Shown: piece by piece, positions 20,552 to 32,436 of the stretch
How positions within the stretch are numbered: the first letter of the stretch is position 1
Layout: every line of letters starts with the position of its first letter
Assembly (NCBI GenBank): GCA_023135195.1
Contig: JAGLTQ010000104.1
Coordinates: 1-35,723 of the forward strand
Origin: Gammaproteobacteria bacterium
Lineage (GTDB): Bacteria > Pseudomonadota > Gammaproteobacteria > UBA6429 > Thiohalophilaceae
Length of the DNA stretch: 35,723 bases
Direction: 5' to 3'
Position numbers and translations under genes: made by a program
The notes under the pieces: generated by a model
Databases searched by the model: none
What the model was told of the DNA's origin: nothing
The model's input: only the letters and a program-made list of their open reading frames with translations

Positions 20552-20806
20552 TTATAACTTTAATGTCTGGATTAATTTTTCAGCGGCTTGTTCATCAGCA
20601 GGGTGACCGACGGCAACGACTTTATTGTTAACGATTAAGGCTGGAAAGGATTTTATATTCAGTTTTTCTGCTAGTTTTTTACCAATATTGCCGGTTAAAT
20701 CATGTATTTCAAATTCTATATTATGCTTTGAACAGCTATCTTGCCATATATTTTGAGTCGCAATACATGAAGAGTAAGGACCTGCTAATATTAAAATTGC
20801 TTTCAT
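20552..20806 (-). CDS. Small thioredoxin-fold protein with a single active-site Cys
   Basis: The 84-residue product has the size and layout of a minimal thioredoxin/glutaredoxin. It has a first beta strand, an active-site loop G-P-Y-S-S-C at 9-14, a helix, and the cis-Pro loop S-F-P-A-L-I-V-N near residue 54. The usual CxxC is Y-S-S-C, so only the second cysteine (C14) remains; a further Cys (C25) lies in the following helix. It could be monothiol or use C14-C25. There is no signal peptide, so it is probably cytoplasmic. A perfect FNR/DNR box and a TATTAT -10 element lie upstream on its strand at the right spacing, linking it to anaerobic or NO control. Its function is unknown. Confidence 0.72.
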   Translation of the reverse strand: MKAILILAGPYSSCIATQNIWQDSCSKHNIEFEIHDLTGNIGKKLAEKLNIKSFPALIVNNKVVAVGHPADEQAAEKLIQTLKL

Positions 20807-20876
20807 CTGATATGAAAATCCTTTATTCTTATTGCACGCTAGTTACACATAATAATGTCGTAAAGTTATTAACTCA

Positions 20877-20890
20877 TTGATCAAGATCAA
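20877..20890. promoter_or_regulatory. Perfect FNR/DNR box between the thioredoxin-like gene and dnr
   Basis: TTGAT-CAAG-ATCAA at 20877-20890 matches the FNR/ANR/DNR consensus in both half-sites. On the minus strand a TATTAT hexamer (20849-20854) puts a start site near 20842, with the box centred at -41.5, the class II activation geometry. On the plus strand the same geometry would give a start near 20925, only five bases before dnr. The box thus best serves the thioredoxin-like gene and may repress or tune dnr. Confidence 0.75.
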
Positions 20891-20929: not shown

Positions 20930-21613
20930 ATGGAGAATAATCATATTCTAAAAGATGAACTCCATCGAATAGCTTTGTTTGAGGCGTTGGATGATGAGCA
21001 ACTTGCCAGCATTTTAAAATCCAGTAAAGTTATTTCCTTAGCTGCTAGAAAAACCTTGTTTGAAAAAGGTGCACCAGCCGAACATTTTTATCTTTTAAAA
21101 TCCGGCCAGGTGAAACTGTATTGTTTGTCAGCAGACGGTGATGAAAAAGTCATCGAAATTATTAATTCTTCAGAGACTTTCGCTGAGGCAATTATGTTTA
21201 TGCCTAAATATACATATCCTGTCTGTGCCGAAGCTATAAAAGATAGTGAGTTGTATAGTTTTGATATGAAGCAGTTTCGGGAAATACTTGAAAATTCCAA
21301 AGAGACTTGTTTTAGATTATTGGCAACTATGGGGCGACAATTGCATGGGAAAATTACGGATATCGATAACCTGACTCTTCACAACGCGACCTATCGTTTA
21401 GTGGTTTATTTATTAGAGCAATTGCCGGAAGGTGCAATGGCGTTATCTTCTATTCACTTAGGCGCAACTAAATCTATTATTGCATCTCGACTATCTATTA
21501 AACCTGAAACCTTCTCACGTATCTTGTTACGCATGAATAAGCAAGGTCTCATTGAAGTACATGGTAATGATATAACCCTGGTTGATGTTAAGGGGCTTCG
21601 TGAGCTGCTCTAA
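20930..21613 (+). CDS. dnr: Crp/Fnr-family regulator of the Dnr type (NO-responsive)
   Basis: The 227-residue protein has an N-terminal cyclic-nucleotide-binding-like domain (about 15-125), a long dimer helix and a C-terminal winged helix. Its recognition helix contains K-P-E-T-F-S-R-I near residue 195. The E-x-x-S-R type helix reads TTGAT half-sites. It lacks the N-terminal Cys cluster of FNR, so it is not an iron-sulfur oxygen sensor. Length and motifs such as T-F-A-E-A-I-M-F-M and L-H-N-A-T-Y-R resemble Pseudomonas Dnr, a haem-dependent NO sensor that activates nir and nor. It lies directly upstream of norC, consistent with this role. The Shine-Dalgarno is weak and close to the ATG. Confidence 0.85.
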   Translation: MENNHILKDELHRIALFEALDDEQLASILKSSKVISLAARKTLFEKGAPAEHFYLLKSGQVKLYCLSADGDEKVIEIINSSETFAEAIMFMPKYTYPVCAEAIKDSELYSFDMKQFREILENSKETCFRLLATMGRQLHGKITDIDNLTLHNATYRLVVYLLEQLPEGAMALSSIHLGATKSIIASRLSIKPETFSRILLRMNKQGLIEVHGNDITLVDVKGLRELL

Positions 21614-21676: not shown

Positions 21677-21690
21677 TTGATATAAGTCAA
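21677..21690 (+). promoter_or_regulatory. FNR/DNR box upstream of norC
   Basis: TTGAT-ATAA-GTCAA at 21677-21690 matches the consensus at nine of ten half-site positions. Its centre is about 73 bases before the norC start. A weak -10 (TGAAAT, 21712-21717) sits about 31 bases downstream of the box centre, as expected for a class II activated promoter. Dnr is the obvious candidate activator. Confidence 0.75.
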
Positions 21691-24554: not shown

Positions 24555-25376
24555 ATGACAACCCCGGTACAAGATGTAAGCCTGCTATCAGAAGAAGAGG
24601 ATAGCCCGTTTTATTTATCAAGTGGTAATGAAGAAGCTTTGTTTGAATTTGCCTGGAATAACCAGTTACCTCTTTTAATCAAAGGGCCAACCGGTTGTGG
24701 TAAGACGCGTTTTATTCGACATATGGCAAACAAATTAAATCGACCACTTTATACTGTTGCATGCCATGATGATCTGACTGCTGCGGATCTGGTTGGGCGT
24801 CATCTTATCGGCGAAGGTTCAACTTACTGGGTGGATGGGCCTTTAACCAAAGCGGTACGTGAAGGGGGTATTTGTTATCTGGATGAGATTGTAGAAGCAC
24901 GTAAAGATACAACCGTTGTTTTGCATCCCCTTTCAGATGACAGACGTATCTTGCCAATAGAACGTACCGGTGAAACGCTGAAAGCTCCTCCAGGATTTAT
25001 GCTGGTAGTATCTTATAACCCGGGTTATCAGAATTTGTTGAAAGGGATGAAACCGAGTACGCGACAACGTTTTGTTTCAATGCGTTTTTCTTACCCGTCA
25101 GCAAAAAAAGAACGGGAAATTGTTTTGGCCGAAACAGGTATTGAAGAGCATCGGGCTAAACAACTGGTCTCCCTGGCTCATGCCTTACGTGCATTAAAAG
25201 ATCATGATTTGGAAGAAAGCGCGAGTACCCGACTATTGATTTATACTGCTACACTTATTGCTGGCGGCTTTGATCCGGTTGAAGCGTGTCGTGCTGCGCT
25301 TATTGAACCATTAACAGATGATGAAGAAACTGTTGATGCATTAATGGAAGTTGTTTATGCAACATTCGGACGTTAA
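24555..25376 (+). CDS. norQ: NorQ/CbbQ-type MoxR AAA+ ATPase
   Basis: The 273-residue MoxR-family AAA+ protein works with NorD to activate NorCB, probably by inserting non-haem FeB. The Walker A G-P-T-G-C-G-K-T is at 44-51 and Walker B I-C-Y-L-D-E at 106-111. The C-terminal CbbQ segment is present. The ATG at 24555 is chosen over a TTG three bases upstream because the AGGAG at 24543-24547 is then seven bases away. Its end overlaps the next gene by 20 bases in another frame. Confidence 0.95.
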   Translation: MTTPVQDVSLLSEEEDSPFYLSSGNEEALFEFAWNNQLPLLIKGPTGCGKTRFIRHMANKLNRPLYTVACHDDLTAADLVGRHLIGEGSTYWVDGPLTKAVREGGICYLDEIVEARKDTTVVLHPLSDDRRILPIERTGETLKAPPGFMLVVSYNPGYQNLLKGMKPSTRQRFVSMRFSYPSAKKEREIVLAETGIEEHRAKQLVSLAHALRALKDHDLEESASTRLLIYTATLIAGGFDPVEACRAALIEPLTDDEETVDALMEVVYATFGR

Positions 25377-25779
25377 CAATAATTTATCTGACTCTGAAGT
25401 GACTCAGCCCGGTCAGGCTTTGGCCGTGGTTGCAGAATCATGTTTTCTGTTGAATCTGATTTTTCTTCCTGTTATCGGGTTTATTATTTTAACGGTTTTA
25501 TATTTTCGTTATCGCAATATCGCACCGCCACTAGCCCGCTGTCATTTATGCCAAACATTTAAGGCCAGTATATGGGCCGGCATTATGTTGGTACTGGTTA
25601 ATGCCCTGATTATTTTATTTGGTGGTTATGATTCCCCTTCTGTCTGGGTTATTGTCATTCTGTATTTAACATCCTTTCATGCTGCTTTCATTATGTATGG
25701 CACCTTTGGTTTAACACGAGCAATGAATGGACAGCATTATCATTACCCATTAATAGGACGAGGGTGTAAAGGGCAGTAA
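25357..25779 (+). CDS. Small three-helix membrane protein in the nor cluster, DUF4870-like
   Basis: The roughly 140-residue protein starts at the ATG at 25357, inside the norQ 3' end (20-base overlap). It has three or four hydrophobic segments (about 17-48, 60-80 and 85-110 from the start) and ends Y-H-Y-P-L-I-G-R. The layout and the terminal Y-x-Y-P-L are reminiscent of DUF4870/Tic20-like membrane proteins. A C-H-L-C pair sits between helices. It does not match norE or norF. Its position between norQ and the iron-sulfur protein, with no gap before the latter, implies a role in NO reductase assembly or electron supply. This is inference from context only. Confidence 0.7.
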   Translation: MQHSDVNNNLSDSEVTQPGQALAVVAESCFLLNLIFLPVIGFIILTVLYFRYRNIAPPLARCHLCQTFKASIWAGIMLVLVNALIILFGGYDSPSVWVIVILYLTSFHAAFIMYGTFGLTRAMNGQHYHYPLIGRGCKGQ

Positions 25780-26727
25780 ATGAAGTCGTATCCTTCTATC
25801 GCTAAAATTACCGTTTCTGTAGATCCAAAATTACAATTGAAACGGAGAATCACTCAAACCAGCTTTTTTTTACTTTTTATAATTACACCAATATTTGATC
25901 TTCTTCGATTAGATTTACATTTGGGGCACTTTATATTTTTAGGGCAAAACTGGACCCTGGGTCTGGATGCATTGCAAGCAGGTGAAGGCAGTGTGACCGA
26001 AGCAGTACTAAATATATTTCTTCGGGTTTTTTTACCTTTCTTTGGTCTGGCTACAGCCTTTCTATGGGTAGCGTGGAAATACGGTCGTCTTTACTGTGGC
26101 TGGTTATGTCCTCATTTTTCTGTTGTTGAAACGATAAATGGTTTAATGCGAAAAGCCAGCGGCAAATTTAGTATATGGGACAAAAAAAAATCTCTAAATA
26201 AAGTCGATGGCAGTAAAATTAAAACGGATAAAAGATATTGGTGGTTAGTTTACCTGGCTGTAATAGGTTTTGCTTTTTTATGGGCGGTGGTTTTTTTGAC
26301 TTATTTATTACCGCCAAAAGAGATTTATTATAATCTTGCGCACTTTAGTTTAACGCGTAACCAGATGTTCTTTATTGGGGTGGCAACTATTTTATTGTCA
26401 ATTGAGTTTATGTTTGCACGTCACTTCTTTTGTCGTTTTGCCTGTGCTGTAGGTGTATTCCAAAGTTTAGCCTGGATGGCAAACAAGCGCGCCATGGTAG
26501 TGAGTTTTGATAGAAAAAATGCAAAACAGTGCCAGGGTTGTCATGTTGCTTGTGAAGACGAATGCCCCATGCGTTTAAAACCTCGCTCAATTAAAAGGCA
26601 TATGTTTAATTGTACTGAATGTGGTCGATGTCTTAATGCATGCCAACAGGTTCAGTTAAAAAAAGATCAACCATCGTTGCTTACATGGCAAGATGGTCAA
26701 TCTGCATTTCAGGAAAGTGATCGCTAA
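25780..26727 (+). CDS. Membrane-bound polyferredoxin (CcoG/NapH/NosR C-terminal-like)
   Basis: The 315-residue protein has about four to five membrane helices, the cytoplasmic motif C106-G-W-L-C110-P, and a C-terminal ferredoxin domain. The two clusters in that domain are C251-x2-C254-x3-C258-x3-C262-P and C278-x2-C281-x2-C284-x3-C288. This is the plan of CcoG (RdxA), NapH and the NosR C-terminus, which move electrons across or along the membrane or reduce metal sites. The first cluster spacing (x2, x3, x3) is unusual. It sits between norQ and norD with no intergenic space, so it probably serves NO reductase maturation. It is not a NosR, since the FMN domain is absent. Confidence 0.85.
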   Translation: MKSYPSIAKITVSVDPKLQLKRRITQTSFFLLFIITPIFDLLRLDLHLGHFIFLGQNWTLGLDALQAGEGSVTEAVLNIFLRVFLPFFGLATAFLWVAWKYGRLYCGWLCPHFSVVETINGLMRKASGKFSIWDKKKSLNKVDGSKIKTDKRYWWLVYLAVIGFAFLWAVVFLTYLLPPKEIYYNLAHFSLTRNQMFFIGVATILLSIEFMFARHFFCRFACAVGVFQSLAWMANKRAMVVSFDRKNAKQCQGCHVACEDECPMRLKPRSIKRHMFNCTECGRCLNACQQVQLKKDQPSLLTWQDGQSAFQESDR

Positions 26728-28651: not shown

Positions 28652-28692
28652 TTGATCAATATCAAGGTTTCTTACTCGAGAGCATGTATAAA
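28652..28692 (+). promoter_or_regulatory. FNR/DNR box and -10 element of the nirS promoter
   Basis: TTGAT-CAAT-ATCAA at 28652-28665 is a perfect box. A TATAAA hexamer at 28687-28692 is centred 31 bases downstream, predicting a start near 28700 with the box at about -41. This leaves an untranslated leader of about 157 bases before nirS. The leader contains a G-rich segment that can pair GGCCG (28733-28737) with CGGCC (28753-28757). Confidence 0.8.
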
Positions 28693-28856
28693 ATTAACTA
28701 ATCTTTTATTATAGGGCTTGGAAGTATTGAAAGGCCGGGTGGGTGTGTTTATCGGCCGCCATTTATATCCCCCTACTTATTTTAAAGGTTTTTTATAGAG
28801 CAATAGAATTTAGTTATAATGAATTTTTGGTAAACACAAAAAGCAGGAGTACTAAT

Positions 28857-30678: not shown

Positions 30679-32436
30679 ATGTCTATTTCATCAAAAAAGT
30701 TCGGTTTGATGTCTCGTAAAGTCATGTTCGGAACCACTCTTGGTGCTTCATTATTTTTTATGATTGTCGGTGTCATTTTCTGGGGTGGGTTTAATACCTC
30801 GATGGAAGTTACCAATACAATGGAATTTTGTATTTCCTGTCATGAAATGGAAGAAAATGTTTACAAGGAATACCAAAAGACCATCCACTACACTAATCGT
30901 AGTGGTGTACGCGCGACTTGTTCTGACTGTCATGTTCCTCGCCCATGGATACATAAAGTAGTCCGTAAAATTCAGGCCAGTAACGAGGTTTTCCATAAGG
31001 TTCTTGGTTCGATAGATACACCGGAGAAGTTTGATGCTAAACGATTAACATTAGCAAATAATGTCTGGCGTGGGATGAAAGCGACCGATTCTCGTGAATG
31101 CAGAAACTGTCATGATTTCGATTCAATGGCACCTGAAAGCCAGAAAAAACGTTCACGTAAACAACACGCATCAGCAATGGTAGAGGGTAATACCTGTATT
31201 GACTGTCATAAAGGAATTGCACACAAAAAAGTTCATGACCAACTCAGTGAAGAAGAGCTGGATGAAATGTCAAAACCTGTTGAAGGGGATAAGCGTCCAA
31301 TTGCACCGCAGTGGCAGGCATTTATTGATAACGGTAATAAGCTGGTTAAGAAAACAGATGAGACTAAAGCTTCAGTTGAAACTGAAGCAGCCAGTACTTC
31401 TGAAAAAGTTGATGAAACAAAACCAGCTGAAGCTTCCGCAGCTAAATCAACAGCTTCAGCATCAACTTCAAATATAGATTGGAGTGGTGTAACAGCAGCA
31501 GAAGTACCCTTATTCTTCCCCGGTCAGGCTTCAATGGAGTGGGTACTTAAAGGTAGTGACCACGGTGGCAAACGTGCTGTTATGACGGGAGATCGTTGTT
31601 TTGATTGCCATGAAGAAGAAGAAGTTGATATTGGTGAAAAAATTGTGTCAGGTGAAAAACTTGAACCAACACCCATTCCTGGTAAACGTGGCAGCATACT
31701 GCTAAAAGTGCAGGCAGCACATGATGCTAACAATCTCTATATGCGCTTCCAGTGGGATGATACCAAACATGCTACTGCCCCCTTTGTTTCGGGTGGCAAG
31801 ATGGATCCAAAAAACCCCATTAAATTTGCAATCATGCTGACAACAGATAGTGAAGAAAACCCTCAGGTTGAATTTGCTGAGCGTGCCGGCTGCTGGCAGA
31901 CTTGTCATCATGATGCCAATAACATGCCTCATCAACCGGACAAAGCATTATTAAAATCAAGTCCGTTGGCGAAGCAACTTGATCTTAGTGGCGGCTTTAC
32001 CAAGTACCTGAAAGAAAGCCGTACTGCGATTGAAATAGCCGGTAAAGATGGCAAAAAACGCGGTGGTTGGGACAAGCTGAAATCTAAAGCTGAAATAGAG
32101 GCTTTATTGAAGAAGGGCACATTCATGGACTTGTTACGTTACAAGTCTGGAACGGGTGAATCAGAAGATGGTTATATCCTTGCTGAACGTGTCATGACAG
32201 GTGGCCAGGGCGTAAACTTTACAGGTAGTCTGAAGGGTGGCGTCTGGACGGTTGAAATGACTCGCAAACTGACTTCTAAAGAGCTAGGTGATGTGAGTAT
32301 GGTAACTGACCAAATGTATAATATTGGTTTTGCCATTCATGATGATTACAGTGATAGTCGTTTTCATCATATTTCTCTTGGCCTCAAGCTTGGCTTTGAT
32401 GATGAAGATGCTGAAATTAATGCGATAAAAAAATAA
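30679..32436 (+). CDS. NapC/NirT-type tetrahaem cytochrome fused to an ethylbenzene-dehydrogenase-type haem-binding domain
   Basis: The 585-residue protein has an N-terminal anchor helix (18-37) and a NapC/NirT domain with four CxxCH sites (C51, C81, C141, C173). A low-complexity, Ala/Ser/Glu/Lys linker follows (about 220-265). The C-terminal part has one more CxxCH (C307-H311) and a CxxxCH (C405-H410). It also has the strand pattern of the cytochrome c-552/DMSO reductase-like haem-binding family that includes the EbdC gamma subunit (N-N-L-Y-M-R-F-Q-W near 351, H-H-I-S-L-G near 563). NirT normally carries quinol electrons to the periplasm, so this protein probably feeds NirS or the cupredoxin. 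The extra domain's role is unknown. The full-length reading frame is intact. Confidence 0.85.
   Translation: MSISSKKFGLMSRKVMFGTTLGASLFFMIVGVIFWGGFNTSMEVTNTMEFCISCHEMEENVYKEYQKTIHYTNRSGVRATCSDCHVPRPWIHKVVRKIQASNEVFHKVLGSIDTPEKFDAKRLTLANNVWRGMKATDSRECRNCHDFDSMAPESQKKRSRKQHASAMVEGNTCIDCHKGIAHKKVHDQLSEEELDEMSKPVEGDKRPIAPQWQAFIDNGNKLVKKTDETKASVETEAASTSEKVDETKPAEASAAKSTASASTSNIDWSGVTAAEVPLFFPGQASMEWVLKGSDHGGKRAVMTGDRCFDCHEEEEVDIGEKIVSGEKLEPTPIPGKRGSILLKVQAAHDANNLYMRFQWDDTKHATAPFVSGGKMDPKNPIKFAIMLTTDSEENPQVEFAERAGCWQTCHHDANNMPHQPDKALLKSSPLAKQLDLSGGFTKYLKESRTAIEIAGKDGKKRGGWDKLKSKAEIEALLKKGTFMDLLRYKSGTGESEDGYILAERVMTGGQGVNFTGSLKGGVWTVEMTRKLTSKELGDVSMVTDQMYNIGFAIHDDYSDSRFHHISLGLKLGFDDEDAEINAIKK

Follow-up and report, generated by a model that had tools for sequence, protein, structure and literature searches.

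The DNA analysed here, hereafter the window, is a stretch of 35,723 nucleotides that makes up one contig of G000, an incomplete gammaproteobacterial genome of 2.7 Mb. Its genes follow one another in the order ccm genes, trx (on the minus strand), dnr, norC, norB, oxidase-like subunits, norQ, norD, nirS and further cytochromes, norD being named from its position and its VWA domain. Two further features of the cluster can be recorded here. The region 25351-26727, inside the nor cluster, contains a small ORF and a NapH/CcoG-like ferredoxin membrane protein, and a NapH/CcoG-like gene between norQ and norD is also present in three related loci (L122, L140 and L141). Downstream of nirS, at 30679-32436, a NapC/NirT-type cytochrome is fused to an ethylbenzene-dehydrogenase-type domain (PF03264 + PF09459). 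Our analysis concerns the intergenic region between the divergent genes trx and dnr, and the small protein encoded by trx. The relevant features are as follows.

20552-20806, minus strand: trx, gene of an 84-residue thioredoxin-fold protein (Thioredoxin_3, PF13192, 30.1 bits for a cut-off of 24.8)
20732-20734, minus strand: codon of C25 in the motif W-x3-C, Cys in 24 of the 25 members of the trx clade described below
20765-20767, minus strand: codon of C14 (the cysteine of Y-S-S-C), which varies within that clade
20842, minus strand: predicted transcription start, deduced from spacing geometry, with a leader of 36 bases to the trx ATG at 20806
20849-20854, minus strand: TATTAT as -10 hexamer, separated from the box by 22 bases and from the -35-position hexamer by 17
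20872-20877, minus strand: degenerate hexamer ATGAGT at the -35 position, which overlaps the edge of the box and has its G at 20875
20877-20890: FNR/DNR-type box TTGATCAAGATCAA between dnr and trx, centre 20883.5, 0 mismatches
20930-21613, plus strand: dnr, gene of a CRP/FNR-type regulator
21677-21690, plus strand: box TTGATATAAGTCAA before norC (21757), with a G in the same place and a weak -10 (GAAATT or TGAAAT, at offset 22 or 21)
28652-28665, plus strand: perfect box TTGATCAATATCAA before nirS (28857), with a G in the same place and a -10 TAAAAT at offset 23

Two regulators that could recognize such boxes are encoded in the genome. Dnr, in the window, belongs to the CRP/FNR type by its domains; it has no cysteine before residue 65, lacks N-terminal Fe-S cysteines, lies beside the nor and nir genes, and carries the sequence PETFSR in its recognition helix, as assigned by analogy with the FNR family. 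A canonical Fnr with N-terminal cysteines is encoded on contig 208 (NF008365, 283.6 bits for a cut-off of 228). The sequence of the box does not discriminate between the two. In its degenerate form, TTGAY-N4-RTCAA, the box occurs 42 times in the 2,705,164 bases of the genome, against 16 times for a reversed control, and 3 of the 42 occurrences fall within the window. At this density, only about 0.002 boxes are expected in the 123-base gap between trx and dnr.

On the trx side of the box, TATTAT scores +4.6 as a -10 hexamer at offset 22, against -11.7 for the same offset on the dnr side in the window. It had originally been predicted that transcription toward trx would start near 20842, with the box centred at -41.5 and a 36-base leader, and that a start in the opposite direction would fall five bases before dnr; the spacing in the sequence gives the same values (dnr ATG at 20930). 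The Shine-Dalgarno-like AAAGGA of trx is rather distant from the ATG (12 bases). This arrangement resembles that of class II FNR/DNR-dependent promoters: the box is a symmetric, palindromic element of the TTGAT-N4-ATCAA type, the -10 hexamer lies 22 (+/-1) bases downstream, the predicted start is 41.5 bases from the box centre, and the cognate activators are both encoded, Dnr by the window itself and Fnr by contig 208. PMC5934665 describes a Fnr site centred at -42. Unlike in class II FNR/DNR promoters, the start is here a predicted one, and the degenerate -35 element with its invariant G is known by comparison only. In the window, nirS has the same promoter layout as trx, the unit from box to -10 ahead of it spanning 28652-28694, and norC has a weaker version of it.

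The original prediction had proposed searching for orthologues of trx next to dnr in relatives. We examined 46 trx loci, 34 of which have a dnr-like ORF in flanks of approximately 1.5 kb, divergent from trx in 31 cases. All loci were oriented alike, and Y and R were allowed at positions 5 and 10 of the box. An exact TTGAY-N4-RTCAA was found in 30 of the 31 divergent trx/dnr loci, the exception being L076. The box had been described as perfect, which is true of the window itself; what is conserved among the relatives is the degenerate form. The degenerate boxes TTGACTAAGGTCAA and TTGACCAAGGTCAA are those of L034 and L035, the closest relatives, and we discarded the perfect TTGAT-N4-ATCAA as a conserved feature since it is too strict, the form with Y/R at positions 5 and 10 being the one present in 30 of the 31 oriented loci. 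In 27 divergent loci, the box lies at most 150 bases from the trx start; in L075, L087 and L091, an exact box is located 316-975 bases from trx. These 27 loci, which represent 15 genera, with many of the source genomes related to each other, were used to determine which of the two genes the box faces.

Candidate -10 hexamers were scored in these loci at every offset from 5 to 44, both toward trx and toward dnr. In the trx direction, the mean score was +0.24 at offset 22, whereas it ranged from -4.4 to -7.9 at the remaining 39 offsets; on the dnr side, it was -7.5 at offset 22 and -3.9 at the best of the 40 offsets. At least four of six matches to TATAAT were present at offset 22 in 18/27 loci on the trx side and in 0/27 on the dnr side, while the other offsets averaged 2.7 (trx side) and 2.5 (dnr side) loci, with maxima of 7 and 6. 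When offsets 21-23 were combined, such hexamers were found in 22/27 loci (12/15 genera) toward trx and in 5/27 (3/15 genera) toward dnr, for control triples of offsets that average 6.7 and 6.8, respectively, with maxima of 10 and 13; five of the 27 loci have no 4/6 hexamer at trx-side offsets 21-23. The stricter pattern TANNNT is present at offset 22 in 11/27 loci on the trx side, from only 5/15 genera, versus 0/27 on the dnr side and a mean of 0.64 at other offsets. In addition, a G is located two bases past the box in all 27 loci on the trx side and in a single one on the dnr side. This conserved G coincides with base 3 of a -35 hexamer that is separated from the -10 by 17 bases, and we therefore read ATGAGT, with its invariant G, as a probable remnant of a -35 element. 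The -10 peak at offset 22 and the fixed G bear out the proposal that the box is positioned for trx rather than for dnr.

The distances from the box to both genes, for which the starts of the protein matches and not mapped start codons were used across loci, point in the same direction. The box lies 60-134 bases from the trx start in the 27 loci and 25-177 bases from the start of the dnr match (25-66 in 23/27). In seven of the 27 loci the dnr gap is below 35 bases; a start with class II spacing would there coincide with the start of the dnr match or lie beyond it. In the four loci with longer intergenic regions (L046, L047, L049 and L050), dnr is 149-177 bases away and the box has remained 72-88 bases from trx. 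In G026, trx has a box 86 bases away, and no dnr hit was obtained in the 12 kb read around trx. Moreover, an exact box starts 60-136 bases upstream of nine of the 11 unfused relatives of trx that have a CxxC motif (the nine include L080 and L090, which belong to the 27 loci too), and seven of the nine show a -10 score above 3.5 at offset 22 or 23. No exact box was found within 300 bases upstream of the 10 CxxC relatives that are fused to a membrane half.

It could be argued that the box mainly serves dnr, by autoactivation or by activation through Fnr, and that trx is a bystander. The box and dnr are adjacent, and dnr-type genes can be FNR targets. Furthermore, among seven dnr-bearing genomes in which we found no trx relative, G005, G022, G036 and G044 have an exact box before dnr, at 22, 78, 92 and 95 bases from the dnr match, respectively, whereas a box with a mismatch was found in G010 and no box in G023 or G051; a box adjacent to dnr is therefore not peculiar to trx loci. 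In G005, a fair hexamer (+2.2) is even present at offset 21 on the dnr side. However, on the dnr side no good -10 is present at offsets 21-23 in G022, G036 or G044, and in G044 a good hexamer (+4.4) lies on the side away from dnr. Together with the absence of any 4/6 hexamer at offset 22 toward dnr in the 27 loci, the seven loci in which a class II start would come too late for dnr, and the four long intergenic regions in which the box stays near trx, this makes a box mainly devoted to dnr very improbable. The offset scan found no class II promoter toward dnr and, with the box distances, led us to reject dnr as the gene served by the box.

A two-way function of the box, with class II activation of trx combined with repression or some other control of dnr, deserves more consideration, although we regard it as somewhat less than an even prospect. 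The short dnr gap of 25-66 bases in 23/27 loci would allow a bound regulator to overlap the promoter of dnr itself. There is also a published parallel: in Bradyrhizobium, nnrS and nnrR diverge from a single shared FixK2 box and are both transcribed in vitro only with FixK2 (PMC6710368). As in that pair, a putative NO-response gene and a NO regulator diverge at our locus from a single FNR-type box common to both. Unlike in nnrS-nnrR, the geometry at trx serves the small gene only, and the small gene encodes a thioredoxin fold and not NnrS. Against a two-way function, no conserved promoter element was seen on the dnr side of the box across the loci, and dnr is separated from the box by 149-177 bases in four of them.

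Taken together, the conservation of the box, the one-sided -10 and G, and the common layouts suggest that trx is very probably a direct target of Dnr or Fnr, and we consider it highly likely that an activator bound at this box drives trx from a class II sigma70-type promoter. In such a scheme, position -41.5 would be occupied by Dnr, which responds to NO, and/or by Fnr, which responds to oxygen. The bound regulator would touch RNA polymerase, which would read a weak -35 element, with its fixed G, plus the -10 that follows the box after 22 bases. Expression of trx would in this way be induced along with that of nirS and norCB, whereas dnr would not be class II-activated from this box and might even be hindered by the bound regulator. 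As for the initial claim that trx is a direct Dnr/Fnr target, comparison between loci supports the box, its spacing, its orientation toward trx and its denitrification neighbourhood, and both regulators are encoded in the genome; which of them acts, and induction itself, are what we infer from this setting.

Relatives of trx were detected in 21/40 genomes of the order (E <= 1e-8), all from one family, in 27/369 genomes of a sample of the class (E <= 1e-8; 23/272 genera) and in 2/398 genomes of a sample of the phylum (E <= 1e-10), one of which is G000. Searches of the orders around G133 (two genomes, both known hits) and around G170 (four genomes, one of them a known hit) gave no new trx. Most differences between the genes of four pairs of close relatives are located at third codon positions. 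Assignment to PF13192 is not uniform among close relatives, L070 falling below the cut-off with 18.0 bits. The structural model of trx, based on an alignment of two sequences, has a mean pLDDT of 84.3 (39.8-84.3 for the five models); it displays the thioredoxin order b-a-b-a-b-b-a with a proline at the cis-Pro position. The structural matches of this model are mostly thioredoxins, with KaiB also near the top. In fold and size, trx resembles the small thioredoxins of the Thioredoxin_3/MJ0307 type (PF13192; 1fo5), and 1fo5 is the only PDB sequence that matches the trx profile at E <= 0.01 (E 0.006).

The active site of trx differs from that of these small thioredoxins. We aligned 46 sequences and built a tree on 87 columns, the inner branching of which is poorly resolved; the tree nevertheless splits into two halves (support 100/98), a CxxC clade of 21 sequences and a clade of 25 that includes the trx of the window. 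Trx of G004 was excluded from the alignment because it has no standard start codon; it carries both C14 and C25. In this genome (L027, L038), the dnr match spans only residues 7-121 as well, which may reflect either decay of the trx/dnr pair or a fault in the assembly. W21, P55 (the cis-Pro) and G67 are invariant in the 46 sequences. Unlike in thioredoxins of the Thioredoxin_3/MJ0307 type, CxxC is absent from 23 of the 25 members of the trx clade, in all of which the first Cys of the motif is missing, and W21 and C25 are conserved instead. C25 is present in 24 of the 25 members, the last one having Ser and none having Ala, whereas 20 of the 21 members of the CxxC clade lack C25, with Ala at that site in 17. 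Counted over the whole alignment, C25 is found in all 23 sequences without the first Cys and in only two of the 23 with CxxC.

The original prediction described trx as a monothiol Y-S-S-C protein. This sequence, YSSC, provides neither the CxxC of thioredoxins nor the N-terminal Cys of monothiol glutaredoxins. A working monothiol redox enzyme, either glutaredoxin-like or a nitrosothiol reductase, that would act via C14 is compatible with the retention of C14 in 15 of the 23 sequences lacking the first Cys, with its location just ahead of the first helix and with the modelled thioredoxin fold and its cis-Pro. However, C14 is missing in eight of the 25 members of the trx clade, which have neither active-site cysteine and are still encoded beside dnr with the same box. 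The retained cysteine, C14, occupies the place of the resolving Cys in CxxC rather than that of the usual nucleophile, and this too argues against such an enzyme, which appears unlikely. Given the loss of C14 in 8/25 members and the presence of C25 in 24/25, Y-S-S-C is not a conserved site, and its reading as the working site is not supported in view of these figures and of the invariance of W21 (46/46); in sequence terms, Y-S-S-C may be a way-station.

C25 is located near the end of the modelled helix 15-27 and shares a stripe of this helix with W21; judging from the model, it would be remote from the classical site, which sits where the helix begins. It is conceivable that C25 is a mere buried small residue replacing the Ala of thioredoxins and that trx is a non-redox adaptor: Ala occupies this site in the 17 sister CxxC sequences mentioned above, and the position of C25 on the W21 stripe, near the helix end, would suit a packed residue. 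We find this reading credible, if short of an even chance, yet the distribution of residues in the trx clade (24 Cys, one Ser and never Ala) is stricter than packing alone suggests.

The connection of trx with NO metabolism and denitrification, which was part of the original prediction, is supported by gene neighbourhoods. Within the family, trx is present in 18 of the 24 genomes that have a dnr match (E <= 1e-40) versus one of the 13 that do not (37 genomes); in a nineteenth dnr-matched genome, G002, the contig ends inside trx. Outside the family, a dnr-like ORF was found within the locus for 14/25 hits, some of the loci being interrupted by contig ends. The divergent trx/dnr pair precedes norCB in L122, L140 and L141. 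In L123 and L127, trx is followed by moaA-like, moaB- or moeA-like, and mobA-like ORFs, which were named from the look of their N-termini except for the moaA of L123, which was confirmed. The CxxC relative L093 (inside L135) is located near norD, a hemN-like ORF and a hemerythrin-domain ORF. On the loci read, the trx family therefore seems to be associated with nitrate/nitrite/NO respiration.

Ten of the 21 CxxC relatives (L076, L078, L083, L084, L086-L089, L091 and L092) are fused to a C-terminal membrane half, in which the motif EHMLPRFTG is invariant in the nine sequences aligned. When compared with NnrS (PF05940), six of these nine match at E <= 1, the best at 8.7e-4 (19.2 bits), which is below the cut-off of 28 bits; L076 scores 18.0 bits, and the comparison by hhalign gives a probability of 21% and an E-value of 0.001. 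A weak resemblance to the C-terminal half of NnrS is thus suggestive, and we have not retained a trx-NnrS fusion as firm homology, the fused half scoring below the PF05940 cut-off.

Based on these neighbourhoods and on residue conservation, we suggest, as its most likely role, that the trx protein is a thioredoxin-fold partner or maturation factor for enzymes of nitrate/nitrite/NO respiration, akin to the CxxC thioredoxins of similar loci, which would have lost its dithiol and kept cis-Pro55, G67, W21 and C25; we would give this proposal an even chance. A more specific and speculative version, which we put forward as improbable in its full form, is that trx lost CxxC, had its one constant cysteine relocated to the distal end of the first helix (W-x3-C25) and turned into a NO-induced, non-dithiol factor of the Dnr regulon that would act via C25 either back on Dnr or on the maturation of nitrate/nitrite/NO reductases, as a feedback or sensor partner. 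The biochemical part of the original idea, a thiol or nitrosothiol handler, is a guess, which the conservation data redirect from C14 to W21/C25.

A DNR regulon with a DNR orthologue accompanying nor and nir genes and an FNR-like motif, as at our locus, has been described in beta- and gammaproteobacteria (Rodionov et al., 2005, PMC1274295). The words 'thioredoxin' and 'glutaredoxin' occur 0 times in the main text of PMC1274295. In the literature that we searched, which was largely open-access, we found no description of the trx gene or of such a feedback or sensor partner. If the regulation proposed here is true, the nitrite/NO regulon of scattered gammaproteobacterial denitrifiers would gain a small protein about which little is known. 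The trx system offers a testable handle, with a single gene, a single promoter and a single constant cysteine. If the relocation of the cysteine is functional, trx would represent a redox fold re-used after the loss of its active site, beside a NO regulator.
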